Source of the DNA: an uncultured Rubrobacteraceae bacterium
Lineage (GTDB): Bacteria; Actinomycetota; Rubrobacteria; Rubrobacterales; Rubrobacteraceae
Assembly: GCA_902806095.1 (NCBI GenBank)
Contig: CADCVF010000072.1
Location: forward strand, 1 to 61,631
Length of the DNA: 61,631 nucleotides
Reading direction: 5' to 3'
Shown here: one piece after another, positions 9,693 to 25,748 of the stretch
How the letters are laid out: each line of letters begins with the position of its first letter
Numbering within the stretch: position 1 is the first letter of the stretch
Notes under the pieces: model-generated
The model's input: only the letters and a program-made list of their open reading frames with translations
Database searches by the model: none
Told to the model about the DNA's origin: nothing
Program-made: the position numbers and the translations under genes

Positions 9693-10139
9693 CGCGAGGC
9701 GACGGTTGCGGCGGCGGACGAACGAGGCTACGCGTCCGACTTGGCGCTCGGTGTGCCTGCCTGGGCGTACCTGGAGTTAGGGGACGAAGGTCGCGCCGAG
9801 GAGGTGGTGCAGGAGGGTATCGAGCGGGCCAGGGCGCAGGGAAACAGGCTGGCGCTGGTGGAGTTGCTAAGGGTGCGCAGCATGGTGCTGGTCAGGCGGC
9901 GCAGAGCGGATGAGGCGGAGGGCGTCTTCCAGGAGGCGGTATCCGTTGCCCGATTGTTGCGCTACCCGTACGCCGAGGCGCGCTCTCTCTACGAGTGGGG
10001 CTTGATGCAGACCGGCAGGCCGGAGACAAAGCAGGGTTGGGACCGGCTCGAGGAGGCCGCCGAGATCTTCCGGAGATTGGAATCGCGGCCGTACCTCGAA
10101 CTGGCTCAGAAGGCGATGGCAGGGCTAGGGCCAGGCTGA
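9693..10139 (+). pseudogene. TPR-rich C-terminal fragment of a large regulator
   Basis: The frame of the second MFS piece runs on without a break into about 148 residues of helical tetratricopeptide-like repeats (GDEGRAEEVVQEGIERARAQ, RADEAEGVFQEAVSVARLL, WDRLEEAAEIFRRLESRPYL). This resembles the C-terminal part of LuxR/SARP-type ATPase regulators or adenylate-cyclase-like TPR proteins. No ATPase or DNA-binding part is present. It appears to be a chance fusion produced by deletion, with the junction at about 9690. Confidence 0.55.
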
Positions 10140-10456
10140 ACCCTTGCGTATTCACCCTATCTCCACGCTGTCACGCGAACTCCAACGCGAGTCGGTTGCA
10201 GATGCGGGGCTCTGCGGAATTGTCTGGCGTTCGAAATTCACACGTGGGTGATCGATCCTTGCTGACCGGACGAGATCCCGCCACTCAATACTGCCTCCCC
10301 ACGTTTCGTAGTCGACGGCGCGGACGCACGGTCACCGTATACCCCGGTGCTAGCCGTAATCTCGAACATAAACTTTGGAGAACTCCCTTCCACGCACTCG
10401 GGTGAACAAACCTTCGGCACAAGCACAGCGCCCCGCTAGGTATTAGTCTTGGCGTA
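10140..10456. other. Intergenic stretch with one copy of a dispersed motif
   Basis: No gene is visible. It holds CACGCACTCGGGTGAACAA at 10391-10409, which recurs exactly at 58661-58679 and in part at 59036-59049. Confidence 0.4.
10391..10409 (+). repeat. Dispersed 19-bp motif, copy 1
   Basis: CACGCACTCGGGTGAACAA is identical to the copy at 58661-58679. Both copies also share AACTCCC a few bases upstream. All copies lie in gene-poor, decayed sequence. Confidence 0.5.
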
Positions 10457-11119
10457 GTGAGCAGCAGTACGGCCAAAAAGATCATAGGGTGGATTGGGAA
10501 GGCGCTCCTGGGGTTGATCGTCGCCCTCCTGGCCCTCGCCGTCGTCGGGGCGATCTACCAAGCCATCGCCACAGAGCGTGCCGAGCGAGCTCATCCTCCG
10601 CCCGGTGAGATGGTCGCCATGGTGGGCCACGAGTTACACGTCAACTGCATTGGCCAGAGCAGTCCGACCGTGATCTTGGAGTCTGGATTGGGCAATATGT
10701 CGGCCGATTGGGCCAACGTGCAGCAGGGGGCCGCCAAGACCACGCGCGTGTGCGCCTACGACCGGGCGGGGATGGGCTGGAGTGAGCCGGGCCCGGAACC
10801 CCGGGACGCCAGGCAAATCTCTGGCGAAATGCACGCCTTGCTCGCCAAAGCTGGTATCGAAAGTCCTTACGTGCTGGTTGGCCATTCGACCGGCGGCCTG
10901 TACGCGCGGACGTACGCCGACCGGCGCCCCGACGAGGTGGCGGGCGTGGTCCTGGTCGACTCGTCGCATCCAGAGCAGTTCACACGCTCAGCGGAGGGGC
11001 GCAAGTACTACGAACCCTTCCTCACATTCCCTGTAGAAGGCGTTTACCTCGCCGTACTCTTGCGGGTCGTTGGTAGAGACGACAACACCAGTCGGGGGAG
11101 TCTCGCAGGTAACCGTTAG
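10457..11119 (+). CDS. Alpha/beta hydrolase, C-terminally truncated
   Basis: The N-terminus has a membrane anchor (about residues 8-35: LLGLIVALLALAVVGAIY), then an alpha/beta hydrolase core with the oxyanion region ESGLGNMSADW, the strand YDRAGMGWSEPGP and the nucleophile elbow VGHSTGGLYAR (Ser in GHSTG). After SSHPEQFTRSAEGRKYYEP the sequence stops resembling the family. The last 30 residues lie over the opposite-strand gene, and the catalytic Asp and His, normally 80 to 120 residues further on, are missing. The start is GTG. The protein is probably inactive, formed by a recombination that joined it to the 3' end of the small secreted gene. Confidence 0.68.
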   Translation: MSSSTAKKIIGWIGKALLGLIVALLALAVVGAIYQAIATERAERAHPPPGEMVAMVGHELHVNCIGQSSPTVILESGLGNMSADWANVQQGAAKTTRVCAYDRAGMGWSEPGPEPRDARQISGEMHALLAKAGIESPYVLVGHSTGGLYARTYADRRPDEVAGVVLVDSSHPEQFTRSAEGRKYYEPFLTFPVEGVYLAVLLRVVGRDDNTSRGSLAGNR

Positions 11120-11212
11120 CGTCGGCGGTGCGGCAAGCGCCGGCAAGGCGACTGTAAGAACTAGCGCCACCACAACTATAGCCGTCGTCACCAGCAAGAT
11201 GATGCGCCTCAT
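10988..11212 (-). CDS. Small secreted protein, probably truncated at its 3' end
   Basis: From the ATG at 11212 (AAGGTGG five bases upstream) the product has a clear signal peptide (MRRIILLVTTAIVVVALVL, cleavage after ALPALAA). The short mature part contains TLTVTCETPPTGVVVSTNDP. The last codons overlap the truncated hydrolase in the opposite direction, so the natural C-terminus is probably lost. I do not recognise a family. A GC-rich inverted repeat lies in the upstream leader. Confidence 0.5.
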   Translation of the reverse strand: MRRIILLVTTAIVVVALVLTVALPALAAPPTLTVTCETPPTGVVVSTNDPQEYGEVNAFYRECEEGFVVLAPLR

Positions 11213-11234
11213 AAGGGCCACCTTCTGAGTAGAG

Positions 11235-11260
11235 GGCGGGGCTCAACCCCCGCCGGGTTT
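11235..11260 (+). terminator. GC-rich hairpin with short T run
   Basis: GGCGGGG and CCCCGCC form a 7-bp stem around a 6-base loop, followed by GGGTTTT on the plus strand. It could end plus-strand transcription from the hydrolase. On the minus strand it lies in the leader of the small secreted gene. Confidence 0.45.
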
Positions 11261-11583
11261 TCCGTCGCGACAACAATAGCAATCGGCGATGAATACCCAA
11301 TGAGTTGTCGCCCCGTCCTGGGCCGTGTCCCTGGCAACGTACTTCGGCTCTTGCGGCCCCTTTAGGATTTTCGATCTGTTATAGACGAGAGCCCTTGGGG
11401 CGTCCTATACTTGCATCGCGGGTGCTATCCTGCCGACGGCCTGGAGCACCGTCCTGACAGTTGGGACACTTGCGTTGGACGTTATCGGAGGTAGCAGCCC
11501 ATACCCAACGACGCGACGGTTTCGTCGAGGCTAAGATTGGTGGGGTGCGCTCATTGACGGGAGCATAGGCGAGGAATGAACAG
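11261..11583. other. Intergenic stretch
   Basis: It separates the small secreted gene from the TPP enzyme and should contain two divergent promoters. I see no gene and no strong promoter match. Confidence 0.35.
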
Positions 11584-13128
11584 ATGAACGGGGCGGAAAG
11601 CTTAGTCAAGACGTTGGCCAGCGCGGGAGTGGACGTCTGCTTCGCCAACCCGGGCACTTCGGAGATGCACTTCGTTGCGGCCCTCGATCAGCTCGGGGAT
11701 ATGCGATGCGTGCTCGGGCTGTTCGAGGGCGTTGTGACGGGCGCGGCCGACGGCTATGCGCGCATGGCGGACAGGCCGGCTTCGACCCTTCTGCATTTGG
11801 GGCCAGGTCTCGCCAACGGGCTCGCCAACGTGCACAACGCCCGGCGCGCCAACACGCCGATGGTCAACGTCGTCGGCGACCACGCGACTTACCACAAGGA
11901 GTACGACGCGCCGCTCACCTCCGACATCGAGGGCGCCGCGCGACCCTTCTCAGACTGGGTCCGGACGTCAGCCGACTCTCGCTCGGTCGCGCGCGACGGC
12001 GCAGATGCCGTGGCCGCGGCGATGGCCCCGCCTGGTCGGGTCGCGACCCTGATCGTCCCAGCCGACGCCTTCTGGAACGAGGCGGACGGGCCGGCACCGT
12101 TGCCCCCCGTCGAGGCTCGCGCGCCGGCCGCTCCCGAGGCAATCTCTGATGTTGCTCGGGCCTTGCGCTCCGGCGAGCCCACGGTCTTGTTTATGGGCGG
12201 CCATGCCCTGCGCGAACCGGGCCTGACTCTGGCGGGTCGCATCGCCGCGAAGACTGGCGCGCGCCTGCTCGCGCAGACGCTCAACGCGCGGGTGGAACGT
12301 GGGGCAGGGCGGGTCGCCGTCGACTTCCTCCCTTACCCGGTCGACGCCGCCCTTGCGACCCTCGCCGACGCGCGCCACCTCGTACTGGTCGGTTCCGACG
12401 CTCCGGTCGCCTTCTTCGCTTACCCGGACAAGCCGAGCGTGCTGAGCCCGCCACAATGCGAGACCCACACGCTCGCCACGCCAGGCGAGGACATCGTGGG
12501 GGCACTGGAGGCACTCGCCGAAGAGCTCGGCGCGTCCCAGAATGCCCCCGTCCAGGCACGAGAGAAGTACCCACTACCCTCGGGTGAAGAGATCACGCCA
12601 GAGGCGGCCGCCGCAGCCATCGGGTCCCTACTTCCGGAAGGCGCGATCGTCGTCGACGAGGCGCTCACCGCCGCCGCTGCTTTCATGTCGCGAACGAGGG
12701 GCGCGGCCCCGCACGACTGCCTACAGGTCACCGGAGGTGCTATCGGTATCGGACTGCCGCTCGCCACCGGGGCGGCGGTCGCTTGCCCGGATCGCAAGGT
12801 GATCTGCCTGCAGGCCGACGGCAGCGCGATGTACACCGTGCAGGCCCTATGGACACAGGCGCGCGAGGGTCTCGACGTCACCACGCTATTGCTGAACAAT
12901 CGCTCCTACGCGATCCTCAAACAGGAACTGGCAAACGTCGGCCCGGGCGATGCCGGGCGCAGGGCACTCGACATGATGGAGCTCGATCGGCCGGCACTTA
13001 ACTGGGTCGGCCTCGCCCGCAGCATGGGTGTGGAGGCTGAGCGCGCCAAGACTATGGAGGAGCTCGAGCGTGAGCTCGCCGCCGGTCTGCGCTCCGAGGG
13101 CCCATATCTGATCGATCTCGTACTGTAG
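11584..13128 (+). CDS. Acetolactate synthase-like TPP-dependent decarboxylase
   Basis: This 514-residue enzyme belongs to the benzoylformate decarboxylase / acetolactate synthase large-subunit group. The N-terminal PYR domain has the activating Glu in FEGVVTGAADGYARM and the block LLHLGPGLANGLAN. The middle domain is Rossmann-like. The C-terminal PP domain has the TPP/Mg motif as QADGSAMYTVQALW running to LLLNNRSYAILKQEL. The usual GDG of the motif is ADG here. No small regulatory subunit gene is adjacent, so a catabolic 2-oxoacid decarboxylase is at least as likely as a biosynthetic acetolactate synthase. The ATG at 11584 matches the family N-terminus. It stands alone. Confidence 0.88.
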   Translation: MNGAESLVKTLASAGVDVCFANPGTSEMHFVAALDQLGDMRCVLGLFEGVVTGAADGYARMADRPASTLLHLGPGLANGLANVHNARRANTPMVNVVGDHATYHKEYDAPLTSDIEGAARPFSDWVRTSADSRSVARDGADAVAAAMAPPGRVATLIVPADAFWNEADGPAPLPPVEARAPAAPEAISDVARALRSGEPTVLFMGGHALREPGLTLAGRIAAKTGARLLAQTLNARVERGAGRVAVDFLPYPVDAALATLADARHLVLVGSDAPVAFFAYPDKPSVLSPPQCETHTLATPGEDIVGALEALAEELGASQNAPVQAREKYPLPSGEEITPEAAAAAIGSLLPEGAIVVDEALTAAAAFMSRTRGAAPHDCLQVTGGAIGIGLPLATGAAVACPDRKVICLQADGSAMYTVQALWTQAREGLDVTTLLLNNRSYAILKQELANVGPGDAGRRALDMMELDRPALNWVGLARSMGVEAERAKTMEELERELAAGLRSEGPYLIDLVL

Positions 13129-13485
13129 CAGCGCCGAGCCTACAACCGCCCCCGAGAAAGTGCTCCGCTAAACGAAGCCTGGGGGAGGCCAAGTGGCGCA
13201 CGCGGTCCTCGCATAAAGGAAAGTCCACGACCGCCAACCGACCCAGAAACAATCGACCCTCGTGTGCCGGGATCTGTATGCCTATGGTAGTAACGATCTA
13301 CGAACCGCGCTTTGACGGGGTTCTCGCAAGATTTCTGAGGTTGCGCTACGTCCAGAAGCTGCTATTGTTTCGCCTGTGACATAAGGAACCGCCAACCAGG
13401 GCGGGTTAGACACCAAAAACCAGTGTTCTGGTTAGATGCAAAGCGAGCCGCACAAGCTCCACGGGAGACTAAGGCAGGCAATCGA
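13129..13485. other. Intergenic stretch upstream of the RTX-sortase pair
   Basis: No gene is seen. AACCAG-tgtt-CTGGTT forms a short hairpin near 13418-13434. TTGCGC, a 16-base gap and TATTGT near 13343-13370 could be a weak promoter. Confidence 0.35.
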
Positions 13486-14457
13486 ATGAATCGACTGTAC
13501 ATCTTGCTCACAGTGATGGTATTTATGGTCGGAGCGCTCTTCTCTGGGCACCAAGCTCTGGCTAAGGTCCTAACCGGCACCGACGACAACGATACGCTCC
13601 TCGGGACCGACGGGGAGGACCGCCTCAAGGGACGCGAAGGGGTGGATCGCCTCAAGGGACGCGCCGGGGCTGACCGCCTCAAGGGCAATAGTGGCAACGA
13701 TCGCCTCTGGGGTGGCCTAGGCAACGATAAGATCATGCCCGGCAAAGGCAACGATAAGGTGTACGCTGGCGCCGGAGCCGACCGTATCTACCTGCGCGAC
13801 ACTGACGAGGTGGATCTCATAGATTGCGGGGCCGGCTTCGACAAGGTCGAGACCATGCACCGCGACGACAAGGCCAAGAAAAACTGCGAGAGAACCCCCG
13901 GCGCTCGCCGGGATGATGGCGGAGCTACGGGCACCACCAGCACTAGCACCACGGGCACTACTACAGGTACGACAACAGGAGCGACGGGTACCACCACAGG
14001 TACGACAACGGGCACTACGTCAACCACTGTCACCACTCCAGGTACGACAGGAACAACGACGGGTACGACTACCAGCACCACAGGTACCACCACAGGTACC
14101 ACCACAGGTACCACCACAGGTACCACCACAGGTACCACCGGCACTACCATAGTCTCGAGCCCGACGGCGAGCGCAAGCGCAAGCCCAACCGCAGATACGA
14201 CAACGGGAACGACGAATACTACAGGCACCACTACGGGTACTGCGGACACCACCGGCACCACGGGCGCGGCGACGACCGGTGCAACCACCAAAGGCGATAC
14301 CACCCCGGCTAAGGACGACGTGATTCGCGACACGATCCCCGAGGGTCAGGAACTACCCAACACCGGTGGCCTCTCCGTGCTTGTCTCGGCGGTGGCGCTG
14401 CTGGCGTTGCTCATCAGCGGGGCGGCCGTTGGACTGTCGTTCATGCGCCGGCGGTAA
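13486..14457 (+). CDS. LPxTG-anchored RTX-type calcium-binding surface protein
   Basis: The 323-residue protein begins with a signal peptide ([19 protein letters not shown], ending HQALA). It continues with about five nonapeptide-type repeats of the hemolysin calcium-binding kind ([43 protein letters not shown]). A long Thr/Gly linker made of TTGT units spans about residues 150-265. The C-terminus is a complete sorting signal: LPNTGG, about 20 hydrophobic residues, then MRRR. Sortase should therefore attach it to peptidoglycan, with the linker as a wall-spanning stalk and calcium folding the head. I chose the ATG at 13486 because the frame upstream of it is not signal-like. The next gene, 28 bases on, is a sortase. 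Confidence 0.88.
14077..14136 (+). repeat. Five perfect tandem copies of a 12-bp unit
   Basis: ACCACAGGTACC is repeated five times without mismatch inside the linker of the RTX-type protein, each copy encoding Thr-Thr-Gly-Thr. Because the unit is a multiple of three, copy-number change would alter linker length without breaking the frame. More diverged copies extend on both sides (13945-14260). Confidence 0.9.
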
Positions 14458-14485
14458 CACTCAACATACGAGGGAAGGCAGCCGG

Positions 14486-15412
14486 GTGTTTAGGGAAGTC
14501 CCGCTCCTCAAGGTGGGTGTGATCTTGATGGCGTTCGCCCTTGCCCTCGTGATCGCCGCGGTGGTGGTGAGCGTAACTGTAGGCAGCGATCTTCAGCAGA
14601 TGGTCACAGCAGAGGCTGCCACCAAGTCCCCTGGCCAAGCGCCGGGCACCTCCTCCGGCCAGGAAGGGAGTGCGACCAGGAAGTCATCTAGCGAGAAGGA
14701 TTCCCCGCCTCATTCTTCTCGAGAGGAGCCGCTGGCGTACGGCTCGTCCTCCGGTGGGCCGGTGGGGCAACACAAGGAGGAAGCCGAAACCCCGAAATCT
14801 CAGCCCGAAATGCCTCAACCGGCGGGCCAGCGAACTCCTTCTGAAGCACCCTCTGAGCCGGTGTCCCGACCACACAAGTACCAACCTCAGCCACAAGAGC
14901 AACCACTGCCGGGCGCGGAACAAAGGGGCTGGCCCGAGCCCACCCGAGGAGAGCTGAAGAGCGCCAAAGGAGAACGTCACTACGAACTACTTCCCGGAGC
15001 CATAATGGGCCTCACCATAGAAGCGATGGGTGTCTATGATGTCCCCGTCTTCGACTCCGACGGCCGCTGGGCGCTGGCCAACGGGGTCGCCCATAACCCA
15101 CAGACCTCCCTGCCGTGGTCACCTACGGCTCAGAGGAACGTCTACCTGGCGGGACACCGCATGGGGTTTCGGGAAACCTGGAGCCGTATGATCTTCTACA
15201 ACCTCCCCAAGCTGGATACAGGAGATGAGGTGCTCCTCAAAGACCGGGCCGGTAGGTCCTACAGATACCGCGTTAGCGAGGTTTTCATAGCTGATCCAAA
15301 AGACGTGTGGGTGATGGGGCAGGTGAGGGGGAGGGACATGGTGACGTTGCAGACCTGCACCCCCTATCCCACCTTCGAGAAGCGCCTGATAGTGCGCGCC
15401 GACCGGGTCTAA
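14486..15412 (+). CDS. Class E-like sortase
   Basis: The 308-residue enzyme is a membrane-anchored transpeptidase. A hydrophobic segment lies at about residues 8-32, followed by a Pro/Ser/Glu-rich spacer to about residue 155 and the sortase barrel. The catalytic triad is visible as His in LAGHR (224), Cys in LQTCTPYP (291) and Arg in EKRLIVRA (300). LQTCTPYP is typical of actinobacterial class D/E enzymes. The GTG start at 14486 follows GAGGGAAGG. Upstream frame sequence overlaps the RTX gene and is not used. The preceding gene encodes an LPNTG protein, its likely substrate, and the two are probably one transcription unit. Confidence 0.9.
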   Translation: MFREVPLLKVGVILMAFALALVIAAVVVSVTVGSDLQQMVTAEAATKSPGQAPGTSSGQEGSATRKSSSEKDSPPHSSREEPLAYGSSSGGPVGQHKEEAETPKSQPEMPQPAGQRTPSEAPSEPVSRPHKYQPQPQEQPLPGAEQRGWPEPTRGELKSAKGERHYELLPGAIMGLTIEAMGVYDVPVFDSDGRWALANGVAHNPQTSLPWSPTAQRNVYLAGHRMGFRETWSRMIFYNLPKLDTGDEVLLKDRAGRSYRYRVSEVFIADPKDVWVMGQVRGRDMVTLQTCTPYPTFEKRLIVRADRV

Positions 15413-15523
15413 TCACGACTTTCGGCATCGCTGCATAACCCCGATCAATTCGAACATCACGAAGTGCTAGGGGAGAGGAGTGTTCCCGCCTCAAGATTCC
15501 GTGCCCCTCGATCCTCGCGGCGA

Positions 15524-16339
15524 CTAGCGCCCTCCGAACACCGTGGTGTACATCGTTGAGACGTCATCGTACTCCTGGTAGGTGCCGGATCGCGCCCCTA
15601 CGCCCACCTCCTCGAACTCCCCTCTCAATATGTTCTCCCTGTGGCCCTCGCTGTGCATGAGCCCTGTGAAAAGGTGCTCGGGGGTATCCTCGTCGTTGCC
15701 GTCGCCTCCCATTGCGATGTTCTCCCCTAGCATGTGGTAGTCGCCCGGTTCGGAACTGTAATGACCCTTGCGCCGTAGCTGATCTATAACCGTCACACCA
15801 CCTGGCGTGTAGTGTGAGAAGTAGTTTCTGTTCAACATGTCTTGAGAGCGAGCACGGGCCGCTGTGGTAAGAACGGAGGACAGACACAAGGGCCCAAGTC
15901 CGCGGGCGATCCTCGTCTCATTGTGTAGATCAAACATCTCTTTCTCCGCGACGTTCAGGGCGAAGGTGCCGCTATCACAAGTCCGCACGTAAACCAACGT
16001 AGAAGTATCGGCCGGTGGTTTGTCTCCATGTATCCAGGACCCGCTGCGTTGTGGAGCCGCGCTTGTGGCGTGCGCGGTTTGCGCCTGCACACTCAGCGGC
16101 CGGGCTGCGCTGGGCGATTTGCCTACCGGCTCTTTCTGGGACGTCGCATCGGGCGGCTCGCGCTTCAGTTCTCCGATTGGCGTCGCGAGGCGAACGCCCA
16201 CAGGAGCATTGAGCCGTGCTGTTTGCCCTTGCCCATCATGACGCATCGCATATGCTGCAACAGCCCCCGTGAAGGATAGCGCGACGAAAAGAAGCACCAC
16301 GCCGACCATCAACAACGCGCCCCCACGCAACTTGATCAT
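15524..16339 (-). CDS. Membrane-anchored CAP/SCP-domain protein
   Basis: The 271-residue protein starts with a membrane anchor or signal segment (LLMVGVVLLFVALSFTGAVA), has a polar linker to about residue 130, and then a CAP (SCP/PR-1-like) domain. Domain features are EKEMFDLHNETRIARGLGPL, RSQDMLNRNYFSHYTPGG, GENIAMGG and FTGLMHSEGHRENIL, with the paired His and Glu of the CAP cavity. It should act outside the membrane; bacterial CAP proteins are often found on the cell surface, but a reaction cannot be assigned. The start at 16339 has AAGGGG close upstream. The gene converges on the sortase gene. Confidence 0.88.
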   Translation of the reverse strand: MIKLRGGALLMVGVVLLFVALSFTGAVAAYAMRHDGQGQTARLNAPVGVRLATPIGELKREPPDATSQKEPVGKSPSAARPLSVQAQTAHATSAAPQRSGSWIHGDKPPADTSTLVYVRTCDSGTFALNVAEKEMFDLHNETRIARGLGPLCLSSVLTTAARARSQDMLNRNYFSHYTPGGVTVIDQLRRKGHYSSEPGDYHMLGENIAMGGDGNDEDTPEHLFTGLMHSEGHRENILRGEFEEVGVGARSGTYQEYDDVSTMYTTVFGGR

Positions 16340-16578
16340 TTCCCCTTCAGCGCCGGCATTCCCTCGGTCCCTCGGCAGATGTCGTAGCTCCCCTGCTCGT
16401 CGTACCCGACCGAGTAGACCCGCTCGCGTTCCGCTTGGGTGTTGGTCGGTGCGGGCTCCATCCTCTCCCCGATTCGACAGATCTAGGCACATACTAGCGC
16501 ACGAGATTGCCAGGTGCTAGCGACCGCCTCATTCGCTGCGTGCACAGCCTCTAGGCATGGCGGAGAGGTTACGGGTTG

Positions 16579-16695
16579 ATGCTCGAGGATGACAGCGAGT
16601 CGTTCAGGCTACCGCTTGCGATCGTGCTGGAACGCGAACCGGACCTCGAGGTGACCGACCAGGCGTGGGCGCCTTCAAGCCTCGGAAGGATCTAG
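16579..16695 (+). pseudogene. Receiver-domain remnant of a response regulator
   Basis: A 38-codon frame reads MLEDDSESFRLPLAIVLERE and then PDLEVTDQ. This matches the opening of NarL-type receiver domains (the ADDH/LFREGL/LEREPDLEVVGEA pattern), with substitutions in the acidic pocket, and ends at a stop soon after. The phospho-acceptor Asp and the DNA-binding domain are missing. It is a short degraded trace. Confidence 0.4.
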
Positions 16696-16995
16696 CTCGA
16701 CCCCGTTACCGAAATTTTTGGGGTGCCTCCGGATCCAGGATGCCACGTCTCGCTGCGGCGCGCATCAGACCACGTGCTCATCTACCAGAACACGCAGGTC
16801 TTCTAGCGCTTCGCGCATGATCCGAAATCTGTCCTCCTGGTCCTCTAGGAACGGATGGAAGATCAGTGTCAGGTGCCCACCATCCCGGACGGTGCTCTGC
16901 AGTGTCATGCTCAAAGTCCGCCGAAAACTGATCGTTCCGTCGCTGTCCGACCCGGTTTTGACGACAGTCTGAGTCGCACATCGATTGCTTGGCAA
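16692..16995 (-). pseudogene. C-terminal remnant of a polysaccharide deacetylase
   Basis: The minus strand reads GGHLTLIFHPFLEDQEDRF and MREALEDLRVL. After a frameshift at about 16770 it continues as CAPQRDVASWIRRHPKNFG. The order 'TLxFHPF ... LxxLL ... W ... VAxW' is the usual end of NodB-type polysaccharide deacetylases. The catalytic N-terminal half is absent. It lies just outside the divergently oriented rph control region. Confidence 0.45.
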
Positions 16996-17135
16996 GACGT
17001 GTAAGTACTCGAAAGCATATTAATGGTTTCAGCAATGTGATTAGTTTCGAGGGAGGGGCCGAGGTGTTACGAGGTGTCTGCGTACCGCCGTACGCCGCCG
17101 CTTCGCGAGGAGGTTGTCCGTCCACAGCGGACGGC

Positions 17136-17169
17136 AAGTGGAAAGAAGAGTACCCACTCCTTTCCACTT
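17136..17169. promoter_or_regulatory. Perfect 10-bp inverted repeat upstream of rph
   Basis: AAGTGGAAAG and CTTTCCACTT are exact reverse complements separated by 14 bases. The site is 20 bases upstream of the RAE-like palindrome. It could be a regulator site or a terminator for the decayed genes to its left. A shorter repeat, CCGTCC-acagc-GGACGG, lies just before it. Confidence 0.45.
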
Positions 17170-17188
17170 CCAGTATATAGCGAACCGG

Positions 17189-17224
17189 GGGGCTTGCGTC
17201 AAGCCCCGGGTCGTGCCGCATAAT
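17189..17224 (+). promoter_or_regulatory. Rifamycin-associated element (RAE)-like palindrome with promoter
   Basis: GGGGCTTG-CGT-CAAGCCCC (17189-17207) is a perfect 8+3+8 inverted repeat, 19 bp in all. It closely resembles the rifamycin-associated element described upstream of rifamycin-inactivating genes in actinobacteria. TTGCGT inside the palindrome (17194-17199) could serve as a -35 for CATAAT (17219-17224), with a 19-base gap, so the element would overlap the promoter. The gene it precedes encodes a rifampicin phosphotransferase. Confidence 0.7.
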
Positions 17225-17361
17225 GCCGGCCGAAGCCAGAACCTACGGTAATGGGAGTAGCGAAATGCGTGTGTTGTCGACGTATGAGTCGCACGGGGAC
17301 GTCGAACCGATGGTGGCACTCGCGGCGACATTCTTTCGAGAACGCACAAAGGAGGGAGCGG

Positions 17362-20013
17362 ATGGGCTGCTACGTGTTGGGTTTCCAGGAGATCGACCAG
17401 ACGCAGGTCGCGGTCGTTGGCGGCAAGGGCGCGCACCTGGGGGAGCTTTCGCGGATCGAAGGCCTCCGCGTGCCGGCTGGCTTTTGCGTGACGACGGACG
17501 CCTTCCAGCGGATCATGGCGGAAGCGCCGTCGATCGACGATCGGCTCGATCGGCTGTCGCGCCTGAAGTCGGACGACCGGCAGGCGATCCGCGCGCTCAG
17601 CGCGGAGATCCGCCAGACCCTCGAAGGGGTCGCCATCCCTGACCATCTGGCGGCGGAGATTACCCGCCCGCTCGCCCGGCTCGGCGAGCAAGCCGCCTAC
17701 GCCGTCCGATCCAGTGCGACGGCGGAGGACTTGCCGACGGCCTCCTTCGCGGGCCAGCAGGACACGTACCTGAATGTCGTGGGGCCGGCGGTGATCCTCC
17801 GGCACGTCAGCCGGTGCTGGGCCTCGCTCTTCACCGAGCGGGCCGTGACCTACCGCCTGCGGAACGGCTTGCACCACCGGAAGGTCCACATGGCCGTGGT
17901 CGTGCAGCGGATGGTCTTCCCGCAGGCGGCCGGCATCCTTTTCACAGCCGACCCCGTCACCGGCAACCGGAAGGTCGCCTCCGTGGAGGCCAGCTTCGGC
18001 CTCGGCGAGGCCCTGGCCTCCGGCTTGGTGAACGCGGACGTCTACAAGGTGCGGGACGGTGAGGTCGTCGCCAAGGCGGTTGCCACCAAGCAGCTTGCCA
18101 TCCACGCCTCGCCGGCAGGCGGGACGCAGGAGCAGGCGCTCGAGCCGGAGCGGCAGGAGCAGCCAGCGCTGACGGATGCGCAGGTCGTGCGGCTCGCCCA
18201 GCTGGGCCGGCGGATCGAAGCGCACTTCGGCCGCCCCCAGGACATCGAATGGTGCCTGGTCGACGATGGCTTCCAGTTCGTGCAGAGCCGGCCGATCACC
18301 ACGCTGTTCCCCATCCCCGCGTCCGGCGACCGAGAGAACCATGTCTACGTCTCCGTCGGTCATCAGCAGATGATGACCGACCCGATGAAACCCCTGGGAC
18401 TCTCCTTCTGGCAGATGACGACCCCGCGGCCCATGGCCGAGGCCGGCGGGAGGCTGTTCGTCGACGTCACCCGGGCCCTGGGTTCGCCGGCGAGCCGCGC
18501 GGGCCTCCTGGAGATCCTGGGGAAATCCGATCCGCTGATCAGGGACGCGCTGCAGACCATTCTCGATCGCGGCGACTTCATCCGGTCGCTCCCGGACGAG
18601 GGGCCCGGCGGGGCGCCGGCGGGCGGCGCGCCAGCCCCGATCGAGACCGATCCGGCCATCGTCGCCGAGCTGATCGGGCGCAGCCAGGCCTCCATCGCCG
18701 CCTTGAAGCGCGACATCCCGACGAAGTCCGGATCGGCGCTGCTCGACTTCATCCTGGCGGACATCCAGGAGCTGAGGCGGATCCTGTTCGATCCGCAGAG
18801 CCATCAGGTGATCATGGCGGCGATGGAGGCCACCTGGTGGCTCAACGAGCAGCTGCAGACGTGGCTGGGCGAGAAGAACGCGGCCGACACGCTCACGCAG
18901 TCCGTCCCCCACAACGTCACGTCGGAGATGGGGCTGGCGCTCCTGGACGTCGCGGACGTAATCCGCCCGCATCCGGACGTGGTGGCTTTTCTGCAGCACG
19001 TCGAGGACGAGGGCTTCCTGGACGAGCTGCCCAAGCTCGCGGGCGGGCGGGAAGCGCGAGACGCCATCCGGGCCTACCTCGAGAAGTACGGCATGCGCTG
19101 CGTCGGCGAAATCGACATCACGAGGCCGCGTTGGAGCGAACGCCCCACCATGCTCGTGCCCATGATCCTCGGCAACATCAAGAACTTCGAGCCGGGCGCC
19201 GGCGAGCGGCGCTTCGAGCAAGGGCGGCAGGAGGCCTGGAAGAAGGAACAGGAGCTGCTGGAGCGCTTGCGGGCCTTGCCGGACGGGGAGCGGAAGGCCG
19301 AAGAGGCCAAGCGGATGATCGACCGGGTCCGGACCTTCATCGGGTACCGGGAGTATCCGAAGTACGGTATGGTCAGCCGCTACTTCGTTTACAAGCTGGC
19401 CTTGTTGGAAGAAGCCGAGCGCCTCGTGCAGGCCCACGTGCTTCGTGAGAAGGAAGACATCTTCTACCTCACGTTCCAGGAGCTCCGAGACGTCGTGCGC
19501 ACGAACCAAGTGGATGACCAGCTCATCCGCCAGCGCAAGGACGCGTTAAGGTCGTATCAAGCGCTCACGCCGCCCCGGGTGCTCACGTCGGATGGCGAGG
19601 TCATCGCCGGGACGTACCGACGCGACGATTTGCCGGCCGGCGCGCTGGTCGGCTTACCGGTTTCGGCCGGCACCATCGAGGGGCGGGCCCGCGTCATCCT
19701 GGACATGGCGGAGGCCGATCTCGAAGCGGGCGATATCCTGGTCACCACCTACACAGACCCCAGCTGGACGCCCCTGTTCGTCGCGATCAAGGGCCTGGTG
19801 ACAGAGGTGGGGGGCCTGATGACCCATGGCGCGGTGATCGCACGGGAGTACGGCTTGCCGGCCGTCGTGGGGGTGGAGCATGCCACCCGGCTGATCCGGG
19901 ATGGGCAGCGGATCCGCGTGCACGGAACGGACGGTTACGTCGAGATCCTGCCCTCGTGCGCAGCAGACTGGTCAGCTAGTCTAGCCGTAGCCGACCGGGC
20001 CGGGGTATCATGA
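17362..20013 (+). CDS. rph: Rifampicin phosphotransferase
   Basis: This 883-residue PEP-synthase-like enzyme transfers the beta-phosphate of ATP to rifampicin, inactivating it. The N-terminal ATP-grasp domain opens with GGKGAHLGELSRIEGLRVP, the typical Rph and PEP synthase start. It includes VRSSATAEDLPTASFAGQQ and ADPVTGNRKVASVEASFGL. A central helical rifampicin-binding region follows (about 350-760). The C-terminal swivelling His domain carries GGLMTHGAVIAREYGLPAVV with the catalytic His at residue 822, and the ending VHGTDGYVEIL is Rph-like. ATG 17362 has GGAGGGAG seven bases upstream; the longer frame from 17251 lacks this and does not match family N-termini. The RAE-like palindrome upstream supports the assignment over PEP synthase and suggests rifamycin induction. 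Confidence 0.93.
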   Translation: MGCYVLGFQEIDQTQVAVVGGKGAHLGELSRIEGLRVPAGFCVTTDAFQRIMAEAPSIDDRLDRLSRLKSDDRQAIRALSAEIRQTLEGVAIPDHLAAEITRPLARLGEQAAYAVRSSATAEDLPTASFAGQQDTYLNVVGPAVILRHVSRCWASLFTERAVTYRLRNGLHHRKVHMAVVVQRMVFPQAAGILFTADPVTGNRKVASVEASFGLGEALASGLVNADVYKVRDGEVVAKAVATKQLAIHASPAGGTQEQALEPERQEQPALTDAQVVRLAQLGRRIEAHFGRPQDIEWCLVDDGFQFVQSRPITTLFPIPASGDRENHVYVSVGHQQMMTDPMKPLGLSFWQMTTPRPMAEAGGRLFVDVTRALGSPASRAGLLEILGKSDPLIRDALQTILDRGDFIRSLPDEGPGGAPAGGAPAPIETDPAIVAELIGRSQASIAALKRDIPTKSGSALLDFILADIQELRRILFDPQSHQVIMAAMEATWWLNEQLQTWLGEKNAADTLTQSVPHNVTSEMGLALLDVADVIRPHPDVVAFLQHVEDEGFLDELPKLAGGREARDAIRAYLEKYGMRCVGEIDITRPRWSERPTMLVPMILGNIKNFEPGAGERRFEQGRQEAWKKEQELLERLRALPDGERKAEEAKRMIDRVRTFIGYREYPKYGMVSRYFVYKLALLEEAERLVQAHVLREKEDIFYLTFQELRDVVRTNQVDDQLIRQRKDALRSYQALTPPRVLTSDGEVIAGTYRRDDLPAGALVGLPVSAGTIEGRARVILDMAEADLEAGDILVTTYTDPSWTPLFVAIKGLVTEVGGLMTHGAVIAREYGLPAVVGVEHATRLIRDGQRIRVHGTDGYVEILPSCAADWSASLAVADRAGVS

Positions 20014-20066
20014 TCGGATGTCCAGGCCCGCAACCTGTATCCTTCTCTAGAGAACGAGGAGTACTC

Positions 20067-20171
20067 ATGTATCTGGCCACCGACTACATCCACCCCACGT
20101 CCCACAGGGGCCGTCGTCCGGGGACAGGCACGCAAGACCTCCACAAGGCGGTCGACAGTCTGATTCGGTAG
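20067..20171 (+). CDS. Possible 34-residue peptide gene
   Basis: An ATG preceded by GAGGAG (six bases away) opens a 34-codon frame starting MYLATDYIHPTSHRGRRPG and ending DSLIR. It lies between rph and the RTX-type gene, 18 bases before the latter's start, so it may be translated from the same leader. No known family. The good ribosome site is the main support. Confidence 0.3.
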   Translation: MYLATDYIHPTSHRGRRPGTGTQDLHKAVDSLIR

Positions 20172-20189
20172 AGCGGAGGAAGGAGAGGT

Positions 20190-20702
20190 ATGAACAGAGT
20201 AGCGAAAACCTTGGGTCTAGTGGCGATCCTGCTGACCCTAGCGAGCGGAACCGCCTGGGCCGTTATCGAATGCACGGCGGGTAGCGCGTGTCGGGGGACG
20301 GACGGGCCCAATACGATGTACGGCTCGGGTAACGAGGACCGCATCTACGGGAAGGACGGAGCGGACGTTATCGACGCGACGGGCGGGTTTGACGAGCTCT
20401 ACGGTGGGGACGGAAACGACGCGGGGCTCTACGGCGGGAACGGACGGGACCTGGTGCAGGGCGGCGCCGGGGAGGATAAGGCTATAGGGGGTTCCGGCGC
20501 CGACACGATGCGTGGGGGCAATGGACGGGATGAACTCTGGGGAGAAGGAGCCGCCGACACGCTCGACGGCGGTCCCGACAATGACATACTGCACAGTTCC
20601 CGCGACGGGAAGGCGCGCAACACGGTGGGCGGTGGACGCGGGTTCGACATCTGTTACGTCGATAAGAACGACCGGGTGAAAGGCTGCGAGCGGAAGTACT
20701 GA
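20190..20702 (+). CDS. Secreted RTX-type calcium-binding protein
   Basis: The 170-residue product has a signal peptide (MNRVAKTLGLVAILLTLASG, cleaved after AWA). A run of about seven Gly/Asp-rich nonapeptide repeats of the hemolysin type follows (GSGNEDRIYGKDGADVI, GGDGNDAGLYGGNGRDL, GGNGRDELWGEGAADTL), which should form a calcium-bound beta-roll. The end, GGGRGFDICYVDKNDRVKGC, provides two Cys that could pair. There is no sorting signal or C-terminal anchor, so it is probably released. The ATG follows AGGAAGGAGAGGT. It resembles the head of the LPNTG protein at 13486. Confidence 0.87.
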   Translation: MNRVAKTLGLVAILLTLASGTAWAVIECTAGSACRGTDGPNTMYGSGNEDRIYGKDGADVIDATGGFDELYGGDGNDAGLYGGNGRDLVQGGAGEDKAIGGSGADTMRGGNGRDELWGEGAADTLDGGPDNDILHSSRDGKARNTVGGGRGFDICYVDKNDRVKGCERKY

Positions 20703-21153
20703 CCGAACAAGGGTAGCGCCGGTAGGGGTATGATCCACCCAACCTCTTGGAAGAGGCGTTCTCGGATGTTCGCAACGCCTAGCGCAGCCGGGGATCTATC
20801 GGCGCTGCATGATAAGTGGTCCCGAACGCAGACGGGAGGTGTTGTCGAGAGCGGTAAGAGAGTAGTCTGGCAGCAGTCACTCGACCGGGTCCTACGGGTC
20901 CCAGGCTCTGCACTTTGGGGGATGTGTTCAAGAGGCTGTCCTCCGGTGAACCCTTTCTACCCTCGCAGCAGGGAAAGTCTTAAAGGTCCTTCAACCTCCA
21001 TTAACAACGCTTAAAGGCAAGAATGTTAGGGTTAGTAGTGCATAGTCCGGTCGGGGCTTCCCCCCTCCGTCTCGGCCGGACTCTCTTACCAACCTGGCCG
21101 GCGCTTGACGCCGTGGTGACCGTCCTCTCCTTGTAAGCTTGGATCTCCTGTCG
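20703..21153. other. Intergenic stretch with a terminator-like hairpin
   Basis: No gene is visible. AGTCCGG (21044-21050) pairs with CCGGACT (21076-21082), and the loop carries a second GGGG/CCCC pairing. It lies between convergent genes and could act in both directions. Confidence 0.4.
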
Positions 21154-22182
21154 TTACCTAAGAGTGATGTTGTCAGCCGACGTACTGACGCCGGGTCCGA
21201 GCTTTATGAGGTCTCCGTTCATGGTGTTGTTTTCGACCTCGACATTCTTGGTGTCTGGCCTGTCGGAACGTCCAGAGTCGGTGATACGGATCCCGAGGTC
21301 ATCCTCATTTCCGCCGAAGGTGTTGTTAGCAACATAGGAGTTGCAAGCGTCGTGTATCGAGACGCCGCCGCGCACTGTCTCCGAACCGTTGTTCTGGATG
21401 ATGTTATACGTTGCGCTGAATTCGGCGCCGGAGCATTCTGTACGCTCGAACCTTACGCCAGCCCGGCCGTTGTTAGAAAGAACGTTGTCATGCACGTTGA
21501 AAGAACCTACGGTGGTGTCACTCATGAGCACGTCGCCCCAGAGCCCGTGTCCCAGATTGTCATGCACGTAATTGTGCCCGGCCTCGTACTCCTTTATCCC
21601 CTTCACCCCAGCGGCGATGACGCCGAGGGCTCGGAGGTCGGTGGTGTTGCTGTCGATCTCGTTGTAGAGGATGTGACCGCGAGCGTTTGTGATACCAGCC
21701 GCCCCGTTGTGGTGAATACGGTTGAACTCAATCAGGGTCTCATCGTCGCCAGAGCCGGCAGCTATGGCCGACCCGCCGCCGGAGCGGCCTTTGAAGTCAG
21801 CGCCGGAGATATCGAGCCACCTAATAACGTTGTCACCCCTGAGGGCTATAAGGCTCTCGAGGTCGGCCCCGTTGACGAGCTTCGTGGTGGGGTCGGGGTC
21901 GGTAGCCGGTCCAACCCTCCTCCATATACCCTCAGCGCCCCTAAGCTCGTCGCCCACCTTCAGGATGATCAGGTCGTTGACCTGATAGGTGGCGTTCGGG
22001 GCGAGCTGGAAAGCCGTAGCCGTGGTAGCAGAATCGGAGTTCACAACGTTGGCAAGGTTCGCGTGCGCCGGGACGTTGACCACGCGGGTGGCTGCTGCCT
22101 CCACCTTGGTGGAGGAGAAAGTGAATATTGCCAGGCACGCCACAAGGGCGGACACGAACACGAGTGTTAAAAGTTTCTGCAT
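21154..22182 (-). CDS. Secreted right-handed beta-helix protein
   Basis: The 342-residue protein has a signal peptide (MQKLLTLVFVSALVACLAIF, cleavage near VEA). Its body is made of beta-helix coils with pectate-lyase-type Asn ladders: IEFNRIHHNGAAGITN, YVHDNLGHGLWGDVLM, FNVHDNVLSNNGRAGVRFE, NIIQNNGSETVRGGVSIHD. The N-terminal part (LANVVNSDSATTATAFQLAP) resembles the region before such folds. It probably binds or cleaves an extracellular polysaccharide; no catalytic residues can be assigned with confidence. The ATG at 22182 has AAGGAGGGGT directly upstream, so the longer frame to 22266 is not used. Confidence 0.87.
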   Translation of the reverse strand: MQKLLTLVFVSALVACLAIFTFSSTKVEAAATRVVNVPAHANLANVVNSDSATTATAFQLAPNATYQVNDLIILKVGDELRGAEGIWRRVGPATDPDPTTKLVNGADLESLIALRGDNVIRWLDISGADFKGRSGGGSAIAAGSGDDETLIEFNRIHHNGAAGITNARGHILYNEIDSNTTDLRALGVIAAGVKGIKEYEAGHNYVHDNLGHGLWGDVLMSDTTVGSFNVHDNVLSNNGRAGVRFERTECSGAEFSATYNIIQNNGSETVRGGVSIHDACNSYVANNTFGGNEDDLGIRITDSGRSDRPDTKNVEVENNTMNGDLIKLGPGVSTSADNITLR

Positions 22183-22246
22183 ACCCCTCCTTACCGGTTG
22201 ACCGGAATGTCGGCCCCGGAGTCCCTTCCAAGACGTAACGGTTACA

Positions 22247-22460
22247 TCATACTCGCCTGAATACATTCAAGAATTTGAGTTCCCGGCTGCTTTGATACAT
22301 GGTGGCGTTGACGATGGATGTACCGGCAGCCTTGACGTCGAAGTTCTCACCCTCGACGAGTGGGGCTACGTCTGCCCCTCTGCTCGCTCCACTGTCGTCC
22401 CGACAAGCGCAAACAGTGCCAGCGACGGCACCAGCAGGATTAAACGCCCCTCGACACCAC
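22247..22460 (-). pseudogene. Remnant of a secreted carbohydrate-binding protein
   Basis: After AAGGAGGGGGT and a GTG the minus strand should encode a signal peptide, but the frame is broken: LILLVPSLALFALVGTTVER lies in one frame and ends at a stop, and APLVEGENFDVKAAGTSIVN followed by MYQSSRELKF lies in another. The second piece resembles the first strand of CBM6/CBM35-type modules (VEGENFD...GTSVVND). Only the first 70 or so residues remain, directly upstream of the beta-helix gene. Confidence 0.38.
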
Positions 22461-22572
22461 CCCCTCCTTATTCTTCAAGATGACCTAGTATGACATAATC
22501 CGCACACTTTGTGAACAGGAGCGAGAAGATGGGCCGAGGCTGCTAGAGAGACCCCGACCCTCTCACCGTGGC

Positions 22573-23031
22573 TTATTGATACTGTTGCTGAGAAGGTGGC
22601 GGTGGCTCAGGAGCTGAGCCGGAAGGTGAGTCTGCAGCTGAGCCGGCCTCCGAACCAGACTCACTACGTGCCTCAAGACCTGACTTACTACCGGCCTCAG
22701 AACCTGACTTATCACTAACCCCAGAAACTGACTCACTAATTGCCTCCGAATCAGACTTACTACTATCCTCAGGAACCTCAGGACCTGACTTACTACCAGC
22801 CTCAGAACCTGACTCCCCGATAGCCTCAGATACTGACTTACCAATAACTTCGGGAACTGACTTACTAATAGCCTCAGGAAGGGAGGTGCCAAGAGAGTGT
22901 ACGTTCGCGATGAGCGGCGTCACCCTGGGCACAAAGATGCCGAAGTACAATAAAACGTTGATGGTCAAGGCGACCACCCCAACGACGAGCACGACCATCG
23001 GCTTGTTCAGCGCCTGCTCTAACCTACTCAC
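22573..23031 (-). CDS. Single-pass membrane protein with octapeptide repeats
   Basis: The 152-residue protein has one membrane segment (about residues 12-34: MVVLVVGVVALTINVLLYFG). A polar tail made of about nine degenerate eight-residue repeats of the form S-K/E-S-x-S-E-A-x follows (SKSVPEVI, GKSVSEAI, GESGSEAG, SKSGPEVP, DKSGSEAG). It ends in a Pro/Gln-rich tip. The repeats correspond to 24-bp DNA units. The tail is probably unstructured or a flexible stalk. I know no family for it. The start is GTG with a weak ribosome site. Confidence 0.6.
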   Translation of the reverse strand: MSRLEQALNKPMVVLVVGVVALTINVLLYFGIFVPRVTPLIANVHSLGTSLPEAISKSVPEVIGKSVSEAIGESGSEAGSKSGPEVPEDSSKSDSEAISESVSGVSDKSGSEAGSKSGLEARSESGSEAGSAADSPSGSAPEPPPPSQQQYQ

Positions 23032-23366
23032 TTAATTGGGCACCACCTTACTCTAGCCTTCCAAGGGCACAATCATAACGCAAGATCGCGAAGCCTGGCT
23101 CCAGAACCGCCGTTGTCCGGAGAAACCTCACACATATACCTGGCGAGCCAGGCAGCCTCCTGCCTACTCATAGCGCTTGCACCTTGCTTCTTCGGGCTTC
23201 ACTGTTTCGTCACGAACCGGAGACGCCAACGGTGTAGGATGGGGCGAGTGAGTAGGCAGAGACGATACCGACCGCTCACAGATGAAGGGTGAATCGACGG
23301 TGAACCTGGCAGAACACCTCTTCGAGTGGGTACTCCACCAGAAACTACGAAGCCCCGGCGTCTGAG
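23032..23366. other. Intergenic stretch
   Basis: It separates two divergent genes and should hold their promoters. GCCTGGC-tc-GCCAGGC near 23140 is a short palindrome. A 27-codon frame at 23282-23365 ends two bases before the phosphatase start but has no ribosome site. Confidence 0.35.
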
Positions 23367-25748
23367 GTGAGACGATCCGATGTCGGCTTGGCGGCGCTGC
23401 GGTCCGGGCTCACCCGCTTCGGGCGCTACCTGCGACGCGGAACTGCAGCCTACGGTGTGCTGCTCATAGCACTCCTCCTGACCGTCATCGCCTGGTACTA
23501 CGTGCGCCAGACCGTCGAAGTGCAGAACCGCGCCCGTTTCGAGGAGAGCACCCAGGCCACCCAGGAGGCCCTGGAGCGCCGCACCAAAGCCTACCTCGAC
23601 GCGATGTTCGGCGCCCGCGGCCTGTTCTACGCCTCCGACTCGGTCACCCAGGAGGATTGGAGCGACTACGTCAAGGGCATCGAGCCAGCCAGCCGCTTCG
23701 AGGGTCTACAAGCCCTGGGCTACGCCCAGAGGGTGGATCCCGAGGACAGAGAGTCTTTCATGCGCAAGTCTCGGGACGAGGGGCTGCCAGGGATGCGGCC
23801 TGATCTGGACCCCGGTGGGGAGCGTTCGGCGTATTTCCCCCTAACCTACGTAGCTCCCATTGGCGAGGCCAACCAGAGCATGCTCGACTACGATTTCTAT
23901 GCTGAGGATGCGCATAGGGAGCCTATGGACCTGGCGCGCGATAGCGGAGAGCCGCGGGCTACAAACATGGTCTACGTACTGAGTGAGGCCCACCCTGACG
24001 ACATAGCTAATCTCGCCTTACGACGGGGTTTTGTCGTCTACCTCCCGATCTACCAAGAGAGGGAGCCGCTAGGGAGTGTCGGTGAGCGTCGGCGCGCGCT
24101 CAGAGGGTTCATCGTCGGATCGTTCGTAAGCGACGAGCTACTCGATGGGATTTTCAAGGGATCCTTCGACCCAGCGATAGATTTCGAGGCCTACGACGGC
24201 GGGAGCATAGCCTCGAGCCCACTGCTCTACGATCGCGACGGCATAAGACGCGACGAGAAGAAGAGAAATTCGTTCCTCTTCTTCAAAGAGACCCAAATAA
24301 GGGTGGCCGGACGCGTGTGGACGCTGTACTTTACTACGCTGCCGGCTTTCGAGGAGGGGGCCGAGAGCAACCTGCCTCCCTTCGTGCTTGCGAGCGGCCT
24401 TATGTTGAGCCTGCTGATCTTCGGTATCACCTTGATGGTGGTGCGCAGCCGCTCTAGAGCTGAGATCTACAGCGAAGACTTGGAGGTGGCCAACAAGGAG
24501 CTGGAGAGCTTCTACAACTCGGTCGAGCAGGAACTAGGGACGGCGCGGAGCATCCAGCACGCCCTGCTCCCCAAGGACTTGCCCAAGCTCGATGGCTGGA
24601 AGATAGCCTACCACTACCAACCCGCACGGGAGGTTGGTGGCGACTTCTACGATTTCCTTCCTTTGGACGGGGGTCGTATTGGGCTCGTCATCGGCGACGT
24701 CTCAGGCAAGGGTATTGCGGCGGCCCTGGTGATGGCCAACACCCAGAGCGTGCTTCGTGCTATCGCCCGAAGAGGAAACATCGCCCCAGGGCGGGTATTG
24801 GCGGAGGCCAACGAGGTGCTATATGCGTACATCCCGGCCGGCACGTTCGTCACCTGCTTCTATGGCGTCCTCGATCCGGAGAGTGGCCGGCTCCTCTACG
24901 CCAACGCCGGCCACGACCCCCCCTATATGCAGCGGGCCGGCGACGCACAGGAGCTAATAGCGAGGGGGATGCCACTCGGTTTGATGCCCGGCATGCCATA
25001 CGAGGAAAAAGAGGCCGATCTCGCCGCGGGGGACGATCTCCTGTTCTACAGCGATGGGCTGGTAGAGGCTCACGACTCTGAAGGCGAGATGTTCGGCTTC
25101 CCGCGCCTTCGAGATCTGGTCATGGTCCAGAGTGCCGGAAGCGGCGAGGAGCTCGTCGACTTTCTACTGGCCGAGCTGACCCGCTTCACGGGCGAGGACT
25201 CCGAGCAGGAGGACGACATAACCCTGGTCACCCTGGAGAGATCCAGGGCTGGCATCAAGGATCGCAAGACCCAGGTGCAACCGTATGCGACGGATAGTGA
25301 CGGCGACAGGCGAGCCCTCGCGGACTTCACCCTTCCTAGCGAGCCGGGCAACGAACGCCTGGCGATGGAGAAGGTCGCCGAGGCGGTGAACGAACTCGGT
25401 CTTTCCGGACGACGCCTGGATAGGCTCAAGACCGCTGTGGCCGAGGCGACGATGAACGCCATGGAGCACGGCAACAGGTACGATCCCAAAGTCCCCGTCA
25501 GGATCCAAATCTGGCTCCTGAAGGAACGCTTGTTGGTGCGCATCATCGACCGGGGGAGCGGTCCTCTACCGAGTCCGACAGCGATTGGACCGGACCTGCA
25601 GGCCAAGCTGGGGGGTACGCAGACGGCGCGGGGTTGGGGTCTGTTCCTGATCGAGCGCATGGTCGATGAGGTCCGCGTCTCGGGAAACCCGGATCATCAC
25701 ACCGTCGAACTGGTAATGCGCCTGGAAGCAGGCAAAGATGCCAGCTAA
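23367..25748 (+). CDS. CHASE-sensor SpoIIE-type phosphatase with anti-sigma ATPase domain
   Basis: This 793-residue protein links an extracellular sensor to partner-switching control. TM1 is at about residues 29-48. A CHASE domain follows to about 330 (SDSVTQEDWSDYVKGIEP, YFPLTYVAPIGEAN, GFVVYLPIYQ), then TM2 at about 338-360. The SpoIIE/RsbU PP2C domain spans about 385-630, with metal residues in REVGGDFYDFLPL, IGDVSGKGI, YANAGHDPP and EQEDDITLVTL. The C-terminal HATPase_c_2 domain (about 660-790) has VAEATMNAMEHGN and IDRGSG, as in RsbW-type anti-sigma kinases. One protein thus holds both the phosphatase and the opposing kinase-like module. The start is GTG. Confidence 0.95.
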   Translation: MRRSDVGLAALRSGLTRFGRYLRRGTAAYGVLLIALLLTVIAWYYVRQTVEVQNRARFEESTQATQEALERRTKAYLDAMFGARGLFYASDSVTQEDWSDYVKGIEPASRFEGLQALGYAQRVDPEDRESFMRKSRDEGLPGMRPDLDPGGERSAYFPLTYVAPIGEANQSMLDYDFYAEDAHREPMDLARDSGEPRATNMVYVLSEAHPDDIANLALRRGFVVYLPIYQEREPLGSVGERRRALRGFIVGSFVSDELLDGIFKGSFDPAIDFEAYDGGSIASSPLLYDRDGIRRDEKKRNSFLFFKETQIRVAGRVWTLYFTTLPAFEEGAESNLPPFVLASGLMLSLLIFGITLMVVRSRSRAEIYSEDLEVANKELESFYNSVEQELGTARSIQHALLPKDLPKLDGWKIAYHYQPAREVGGDFYDFLPLDGGRIGLVIGDVSGKGIAAALVMANTQSVLRAIARRGNIAPGRVLAEANEVLYAYIPAGTFVTCFYGVLDPESGRLLYANAGHDPPYMQRAGDAQELIARGMPLGLMPGMPYEEKEADLAAGDDLLFYSDGLVEAHDSEGEMFGFPRLRDLVMVQSAGSGEELVDFLLAELTRFTGEDSEQEDDITLVTLERSRAGIKDRKTQVQPYATDSDGDRRALADFTLPSEPGNERLAMEKVAEAVNELGLSGRRLDRLKTAVAEATMNAMEHGNRYDPKVPVRIQIWLLKERLLVRIIDRGSGPLPSPTAIGPDLQAKLGGTQTARGWGLFLIERMVDEVRVSGNPDHHTVELVMRLEAGKDAS

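Follow-up and report, generated by a model that had tools for sequence, protein, structure and literature searches.

A gene pair of Rubrobacteraceae that probably joins variable surface proteins to one sortase clade through a shared extended sorting signal, here with an RTX head

A surface-protein gene (P0001) and a sortase gene (P0002) adjoin in the genome of an uncultured Rubrobacteraceae bacterium, and this pairing of substrate and sortase is real and conserved in relatives. With moderate confidence, we read the pair as a wall-anchoring cassette with a swappable head and a lineage-specific extended sorting signal, the head being of the RTX type here; the neighbor is probably not the only substrate of the sortase. 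The window analyzed is one whole contig of 61,631 nucleotides, from a genome of 3.83 Mb in 85 contigs.

The surface protein and its sortase

P0001 occupies positions 13486 to 14457 of the forward strand (323 amino acids; coordinates exact) and has an ortholog, 70% identical over residues 1-322, on contig C328 of genome G017. Its translation, read by eye, begins with a predicted Sec signal peptide (residues 1-26, ending ...HQALA; 13486-13563), which leads into the RTX head (13564-13905) with about eight nonapeptide-like units, also counted by eye, and then a two-cysteine segment, DCGAGFD...NCE. The head belongs to the RTX family, PF00353 being found in three stretches at 64.4 bits (cut-off 23; E 8.5e-18); its single-sequence fold was uninformative (mean pLDDT 45). 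Next come a Thr-rich stalk (residues 146-276; 13921-14313), with 74 Thr and 24 Gly among 131 residues, and the extension preceding LPxTG (14314-14352), identified from the alignment of substrate tails as the conserved part of the extended signal. The sorting signal proper (14353-14454) consists of LPNTGG, starting at residue 290, a hydrophobic stretch, and an RRR tail; the LPxTG model TIGR01167 gives P0001 13.1 bits, below its cut-off of 15.9, with motif, hydrophobic stretch, and basic tail all there.

A gap of 28 bp separates the two genes, and AGGGAAGG precedes the GTG start of P0002. The sortase gene (14486-15412, forward strand; 308 amino acids) belongs to what we call clade A and falls squarely in the sortase superfamily (PF04203, 98.4 bits against a cut-off of 26.6; E 3.2e-28). 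An N-terminal hydrophobic stretch, seen by eye, and a long Pro/Glu/Ser-rich linker precede the catalytic domain, in which alignment places the catalytic His224 (codon 15155-15157), Cys291 (15356-15358, in LQTC), and Arg300 (15383-15385, in KRLIV), all on the forward strand; these three columns are invariant in all 33 rows of the sortase alignment, A1. The architecture described in an earlier note on this DNA, an RTX protein with signal peptide, Thr-Gly stalk, and LPNTG signal followed within 30 bp by a sortase with intact His, Cys, and Arg, is borne out.

Conservation of the pairing

Because the gene order recurs in relatives, the arrangement of P0001 and P0002 is not a matter of chance. Clade A was delimited by the best match to P0002, which scores 183-380 bits in 23 family genomes (with the window's own, 24 of 39) and at most 122 bits, outside the clade, in the remaining 15; family genomes carry 3 to 23 sortase matches each. 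Pairing was counted over 34 clade A hits, with the gene frames around the sortases of relatives read directly; the hits lie in 30 loci, of which 29 belong to relatives and one is on contig C73 of the window's own genome. A sorting-signal gene lies directly upstream in 24 of the 34, 17 recognized by pattern and 7 by reading (LA or LS signals, or a frame overrunning the signal), and the loci read hold one or two such genes upstream of the sortase. Among these 24, the sortase at G022 C1:129914 is interrupted by an in-frame stop. As for the others, the hit in L075 is the rear copy of a tandem, L021 and L086 have a decayed-looking open reading frame (ORF) upstream, L072 and two hits in L080 lie at or behind a contig edge, and L076 lies behind masked DNA; no sorting-signal gene stands upstream of the clade A sortase in L090, L094, and L095.

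At the clade A sortase of C73 (L021; G000 C73:8792-9915), the short upstream ORF resembles DCSQVQ..QVNACLG-type substrates without the LPxTG, as does a similar one in G017 (L086), and looks like a decayed substrate. A small head of this kind (like DCSQVQ...IAQELNISQSQVNACLG) recurs in LPxTG proteins of L069, L079, L085, L091, L093, L071, L073, and L211; a Pfam scan of its carrier in L069 returned no family.

Named records give a similar picture. The scan with alignment A1 found 78 loci (the scan with P0002 alone matched nothing), from Rubrobacter and Rubrobacteraceae, some labeled just Actinobacteria or Actinomycetota. A sorting-signal gene stands upstream of 18 of 25 clade A sortases versus 1 of 67 others, the single case being the same tandem copy (L075); counted in either direction, the figures are 18 of 25 versus 3 of 67. 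R. marinus SCSIO 52915 is among the species with a linked pair (L116). This count sought L[PASG]xTG-type signals alone, such that other signal types beside the 67 would be missed. Upstream room of at least 1 kb was available for 20 of the 25 and 60 of the 67. The counts of 24/34 and 18/25 overlap, since many genomes stand in both collections.

A shared extended sorting signal

Most linked substrates share an extended signal, approximately V(I/L)xx(T/S)(I/V)Px(K/D)x-L(P/A/S)xTGG, on heads that vary: of six scanned, two carry DUF11 and four have no family over cut-off, and the head in the window is RTX. In 27 linked rows the motif starts with LP (21), LA (4), or LS (2), and [TS][IV]P, judged by eye, stands 6-7 residues ahead of the L in 19 and is missing from 8. 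The strict extension pattern occurs in 16 of 25 linked tails versus 4 of 19 unlinked ones, the latter being those fetched by the searches rather than a full census. These four carriers belong to G017 (two), G007, and G003, all of them clade A genomes. Three others of the 19 come near the pattern: C54 of the window's own genome (with TIS), a protein of G035 that resembles the linked substrate there, and a protein of G023. The last adjoins what looks like the start of a sortase, truncated at the contig edge, and so is perhaps linked itself.

The signal is distributed with the clade. A profile of the extended signal built from linked substrates (A2; threshold E <= 1e-9) detects the signal in 22 of the 24 family genomes with clade A versus 0 of the 15 others (Fisher's p 5e-9, kinship ignored); the two missed are G030, masked upstream, and G038, at a contig edge. 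Because A2 was trained on linked substrates, its presence in clade A genomes is partly by construction, and the independent evidence lies in the zero outside the clade and in the carriers that are not linked. Across a phylum sample of 296 genomes with at least 27 family members, A2 matches at least 14, all Rubrobacteraceae among the matches listed.

Other sortases and anchor proteins of the genome

The genome itself carries ten sortases, among them the nearest paralogue of P0002 (C73; same clade, 45% identical). Beside the nine others, no sorting-signal gene was seen in the roughly 3.5 to 5 kb read on each side, and a six-frame scan there gave three weak strings, unlike sorting signals. Two proteins, P0001 and C54, have A2 matches that reach far into the extension; C54 is a second LPNTG protein, its extended signal almost that of P0001, with no sortase within the 10 kb read. 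The body of C54 shares 76% identity (157 amino acids) with the linked substrate found in G018 and 47% (337 amino acids) with one in G007. Exclusivity of P0002 for P0001 fails because of the ten sortases and unlinked C54; and since both the signal and the body of C54 are homologous to those of linked substrates, P0002 probably acts on two substrates or more, serving other proteins besides P0001. In turn, P0001 could also be anchored by C73 or by the eight other sortases.

Further anchor candidates of this genome have no extension (C27, LPPTGG; C39, LPDTGG; C1, LADTGG; C37, LGETGG) and may be substrates of other sortases. The search pattern, LPxTGG followed by basic residues, gave 24 raw matches (nested ones recounted) versus 14 in the backward control, and for this reason was used just for spotting candidates.

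Of the "dedicated" sortase envisaged in the earlier note, the conserved pair survives and the exclusivity does not. That note had also named two findings that would speak against it, many lone LPxTG substrates or a pair absent from relatives; LPxTG proteins without an adjoining sortase do occur, and the pairing is conserved.

A broader proposal, which we advance tentatively, is that Rubrobacteraceae wire one sortase clade privately. The enzyme would read some ten residues ahead of LPxTG, and any head with the tail V-I/L-x-x-T-I/V-P-x-K/D-x-L-P/A/S-x-T-G-G would be routed to it, linked or not; the RTX protein would then be one recent rider. The main alternative is that the substrates may have their C-terminal segment in common through descent rather than through recognition. 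Its fuller form, rather unlikely in our view, is that P0002 is linked but generic, accepting any LPxTG, that several of the ten sortases anchor P0001, and that the extension is inherited with no recognition role. Such a sortase would sit well with the number of sortases, with extension-free LPxTG proteins like C27 and C39 in the same genome, and with the eight linked rows devoid of [TS][IV]P, but less well with an extension that stands on different heads, is confined to clade A genomes when found in strict form on unlinked proteins (4 of 4), and reaches the A2 threshold in none of the family genomes lacking the clade.

The class of the sortase

The earlier note had described the sortase as class E-like, a label rejected here, as the class E cut-off is far off, class C is nearer by sequence, and every class cut-off (140-165 bits) is missed. 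NCBIfam models give P0002 81.6-82.6 bits for class C (NF033745; cut-off 160), 47.3-48.6 for class E (NF033747; cut-off 160), and 41.5-44.1 for class D; a profile search of solved structures gives 68.8 bits for class C 2xwg, 26.3 for SrtE1, and 19.9 for SrtF. The residue after the conserved His, presumably the class E Tyr position, is not Tyr in any of the 33 A1 rows. A phmmer search with the C69 sortase, made to bring up class E alignments, gave none. Class F was considered and dropped at those 19.9 bits for Corynebacterium diphtheriae SrtF (5uus), despite a structural Z of 16.8. Judged by sequence, clade A sortases are best called unassigned, nearest to class C.

Should P0002 nonetheless be a pilus-type (class C) polymerase, it would make homopolymers of its substrate instead of anchoring single molecules; we find this quite improbable. 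The predicted structure (mean pLDDT 88, pTM 0.83) does return class C sortases and a C. diphtheriae pilus-type sortase in the first rows of Foldseek, and class C is nearest by sequence, but VIA-align places class C and class E about level (3re9, Z 18.7; 5cuw, Z 18.1, rmsd 1.5 over 129), the class cut-off is missed by a wide interval, and the upstream genes of the loci read number one or two with sorting signals. The lid of a class C enzyme, presumably expected ahead of the catalytic domain, would fall in the part of the model that has low confidence (residues 1-30, pLDDT 52-57).

The RTX head and its neighbors

Full-length RTX-stalk-LPNTG proteins occur in at least 2 of 39 family genomes among the matches listed, the window's and that of G017 C328, with no sortase in the 9 kb read around the latter. 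A conserved pair of RTX-LPxTG protein and sortase finds no support in this distribution. The sortase ortholog of G017 (64% identical) has a TTG-stalk LPNTG gene upstream, its head lost at the contig end.

RTX proteins as such are common in Rubrobacteraceae (P0001 matches at E <= 1e-10 in 28 of 39 family genomes) and occur in at least nine phylum genomes outside the family, such that finding RTX in a Gram-positive is no surprise as such. Anchoring is the rarer feature. At E <= 1e-14 the phylum search gave at least 17 RTX places in at least 14 of 246 genomes, and an LPxTG end in the window's alone among the matches listed; of 34 other readable RTX loci in the own genome and family (35 tried), that of G017 alone has one. 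Rarer RTX-LPxTG cases may escape both searches. L227 and L031, flagged as such, were rejected, having LGGTG strings inside the repeats.

RTX stretches lie at some 13 other places of the own genome (E <= 0.02), and the family has further RTX proteins with cysteine segments like that of P0001. Genome G022 has an RTX gene without an anchor between two of its cassettes, and a further RTX stretch close to a third. It is plausible that a local RTX protein was fused to an anchor cassette, and the calcium-binding part of P0001 is unusual and probably recent. A second calcium-type rider is the unlinked protein at L205:448-981 (G017 C426), whose extended signal ends in LAPTGG and whose Excalibur calcium-binding domain scores 23.8 bits (cut-off 22).

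Downstream in the window, the gene at 20190-20702 encodes an RTX protein with a signal-like N-terminus, no anchor, and a Cys-containing end segment like others in the family. An 822-amino-acid ORF at 17041-19509 on the reverse strand looks like the antisense shadow of a PPDK/PEP-utilizer gene (17251-20013; PF01326, PF00391). No type I transporter gene was recognized by eye among the ORFs of 10000-24000, and the C-terminus of P0001 is a sorting signal.

The suggestion that P0001 works in a calcium-dependent surface complex with a CAP protein (15524) and the RTX protein at 20190 is highly improbable: the three genes do lie close together, the CAP and RTX domains are present, both proteins have signal- or anchor-like N-termini (by eye), and RTX stretches occur near clade A sortases at two G022 loci, but the CAP gene is on the opposite strand and has no homologue in 29 related sortase loci, RTX genes occur in 2 of those 29 (G022 alone), and RTX is found at many other places of the genome.

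A working model of the cassette

By analogy with known families, P0001 would leave the cell via Sec, and its RTX head would fold outside with calcium, kept off the membrane by the Thr-rich stalk. Membrane-tethered P0002 would then recognize the extended signal V-I-x-x-T-I-P-x4-LPNTGG, cleave between Thr and Gly by means of Cys291, and hand P0001 to an acceptor in the cell wall. The same enzyme may also anchor C54 in trans, the relatives of C54 being sortase-linked substrates elsewhere. The cassette is widespread in Rubrobacteraceae; its substrate head varies from species to species and is RTX in the window.

Substrate-to-sortase routing is mostly explained by differences within the five-residue motif. 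If clade A does read a longer signal, this would add a second layer of sortase specificity and provide a new address tag. In the open-access literature searched, we found no report on Rubrobacter sortases or their substrates and no paper combining RTX, LPXTG, sortase, actinobacteria, and calcium binding; for an extended motif ahead of LPXTG, the sole match concerns protein labeling.

Comparison with known systems

Class C (pilin) sortases are the best sequence match to P0002, in solved structures and in NCBIfam, and the P0002 gene adjoins an LPxTG substrate; however, P0002 reaches about half the class cut-off, and no pilin cluster was recognized. The class E enzymes SrtE1 and SrtE2 of Streptomyces, which anchor chaplins, are likewise actinobacterial wall-anchoring sortases of similar fold (5cuw). 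Class E is described (PMC5148588) by its use of LAxTG and by a Tyr conserved in the beta3/beta4 loop, with SrtE1 able to take Pro or Ala; P0001 carries LPNTG, and the class E score of P0002 is 48.6 against 160.

P0001 shares its calcium-binding nonapeptide repeats with other RTX (PF00353) proteins. Gram-negative RTX exoproteins are reported to be secreted, as a rule, by type I systems (PMC3034196), whereas P0001 combines a signal peptide at its N-terminus with a two-Cys segment and a sorting signal.

Gene linkage can also be compared. Actinoplanes has its sortases and substrates at separate loci (PMC13251363), such that linkage is not general among actinobacteria. The SrtB-AbpA pair of oral streptococci comes closer (PMC4974636): there, a single sortase gene accompanies that of a single substrate, whose sorting signal is distinct. 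It differs in sortase class and in signal; and in Rubrobacteraceae the heads vary and unlinked carriers of the signal exist.
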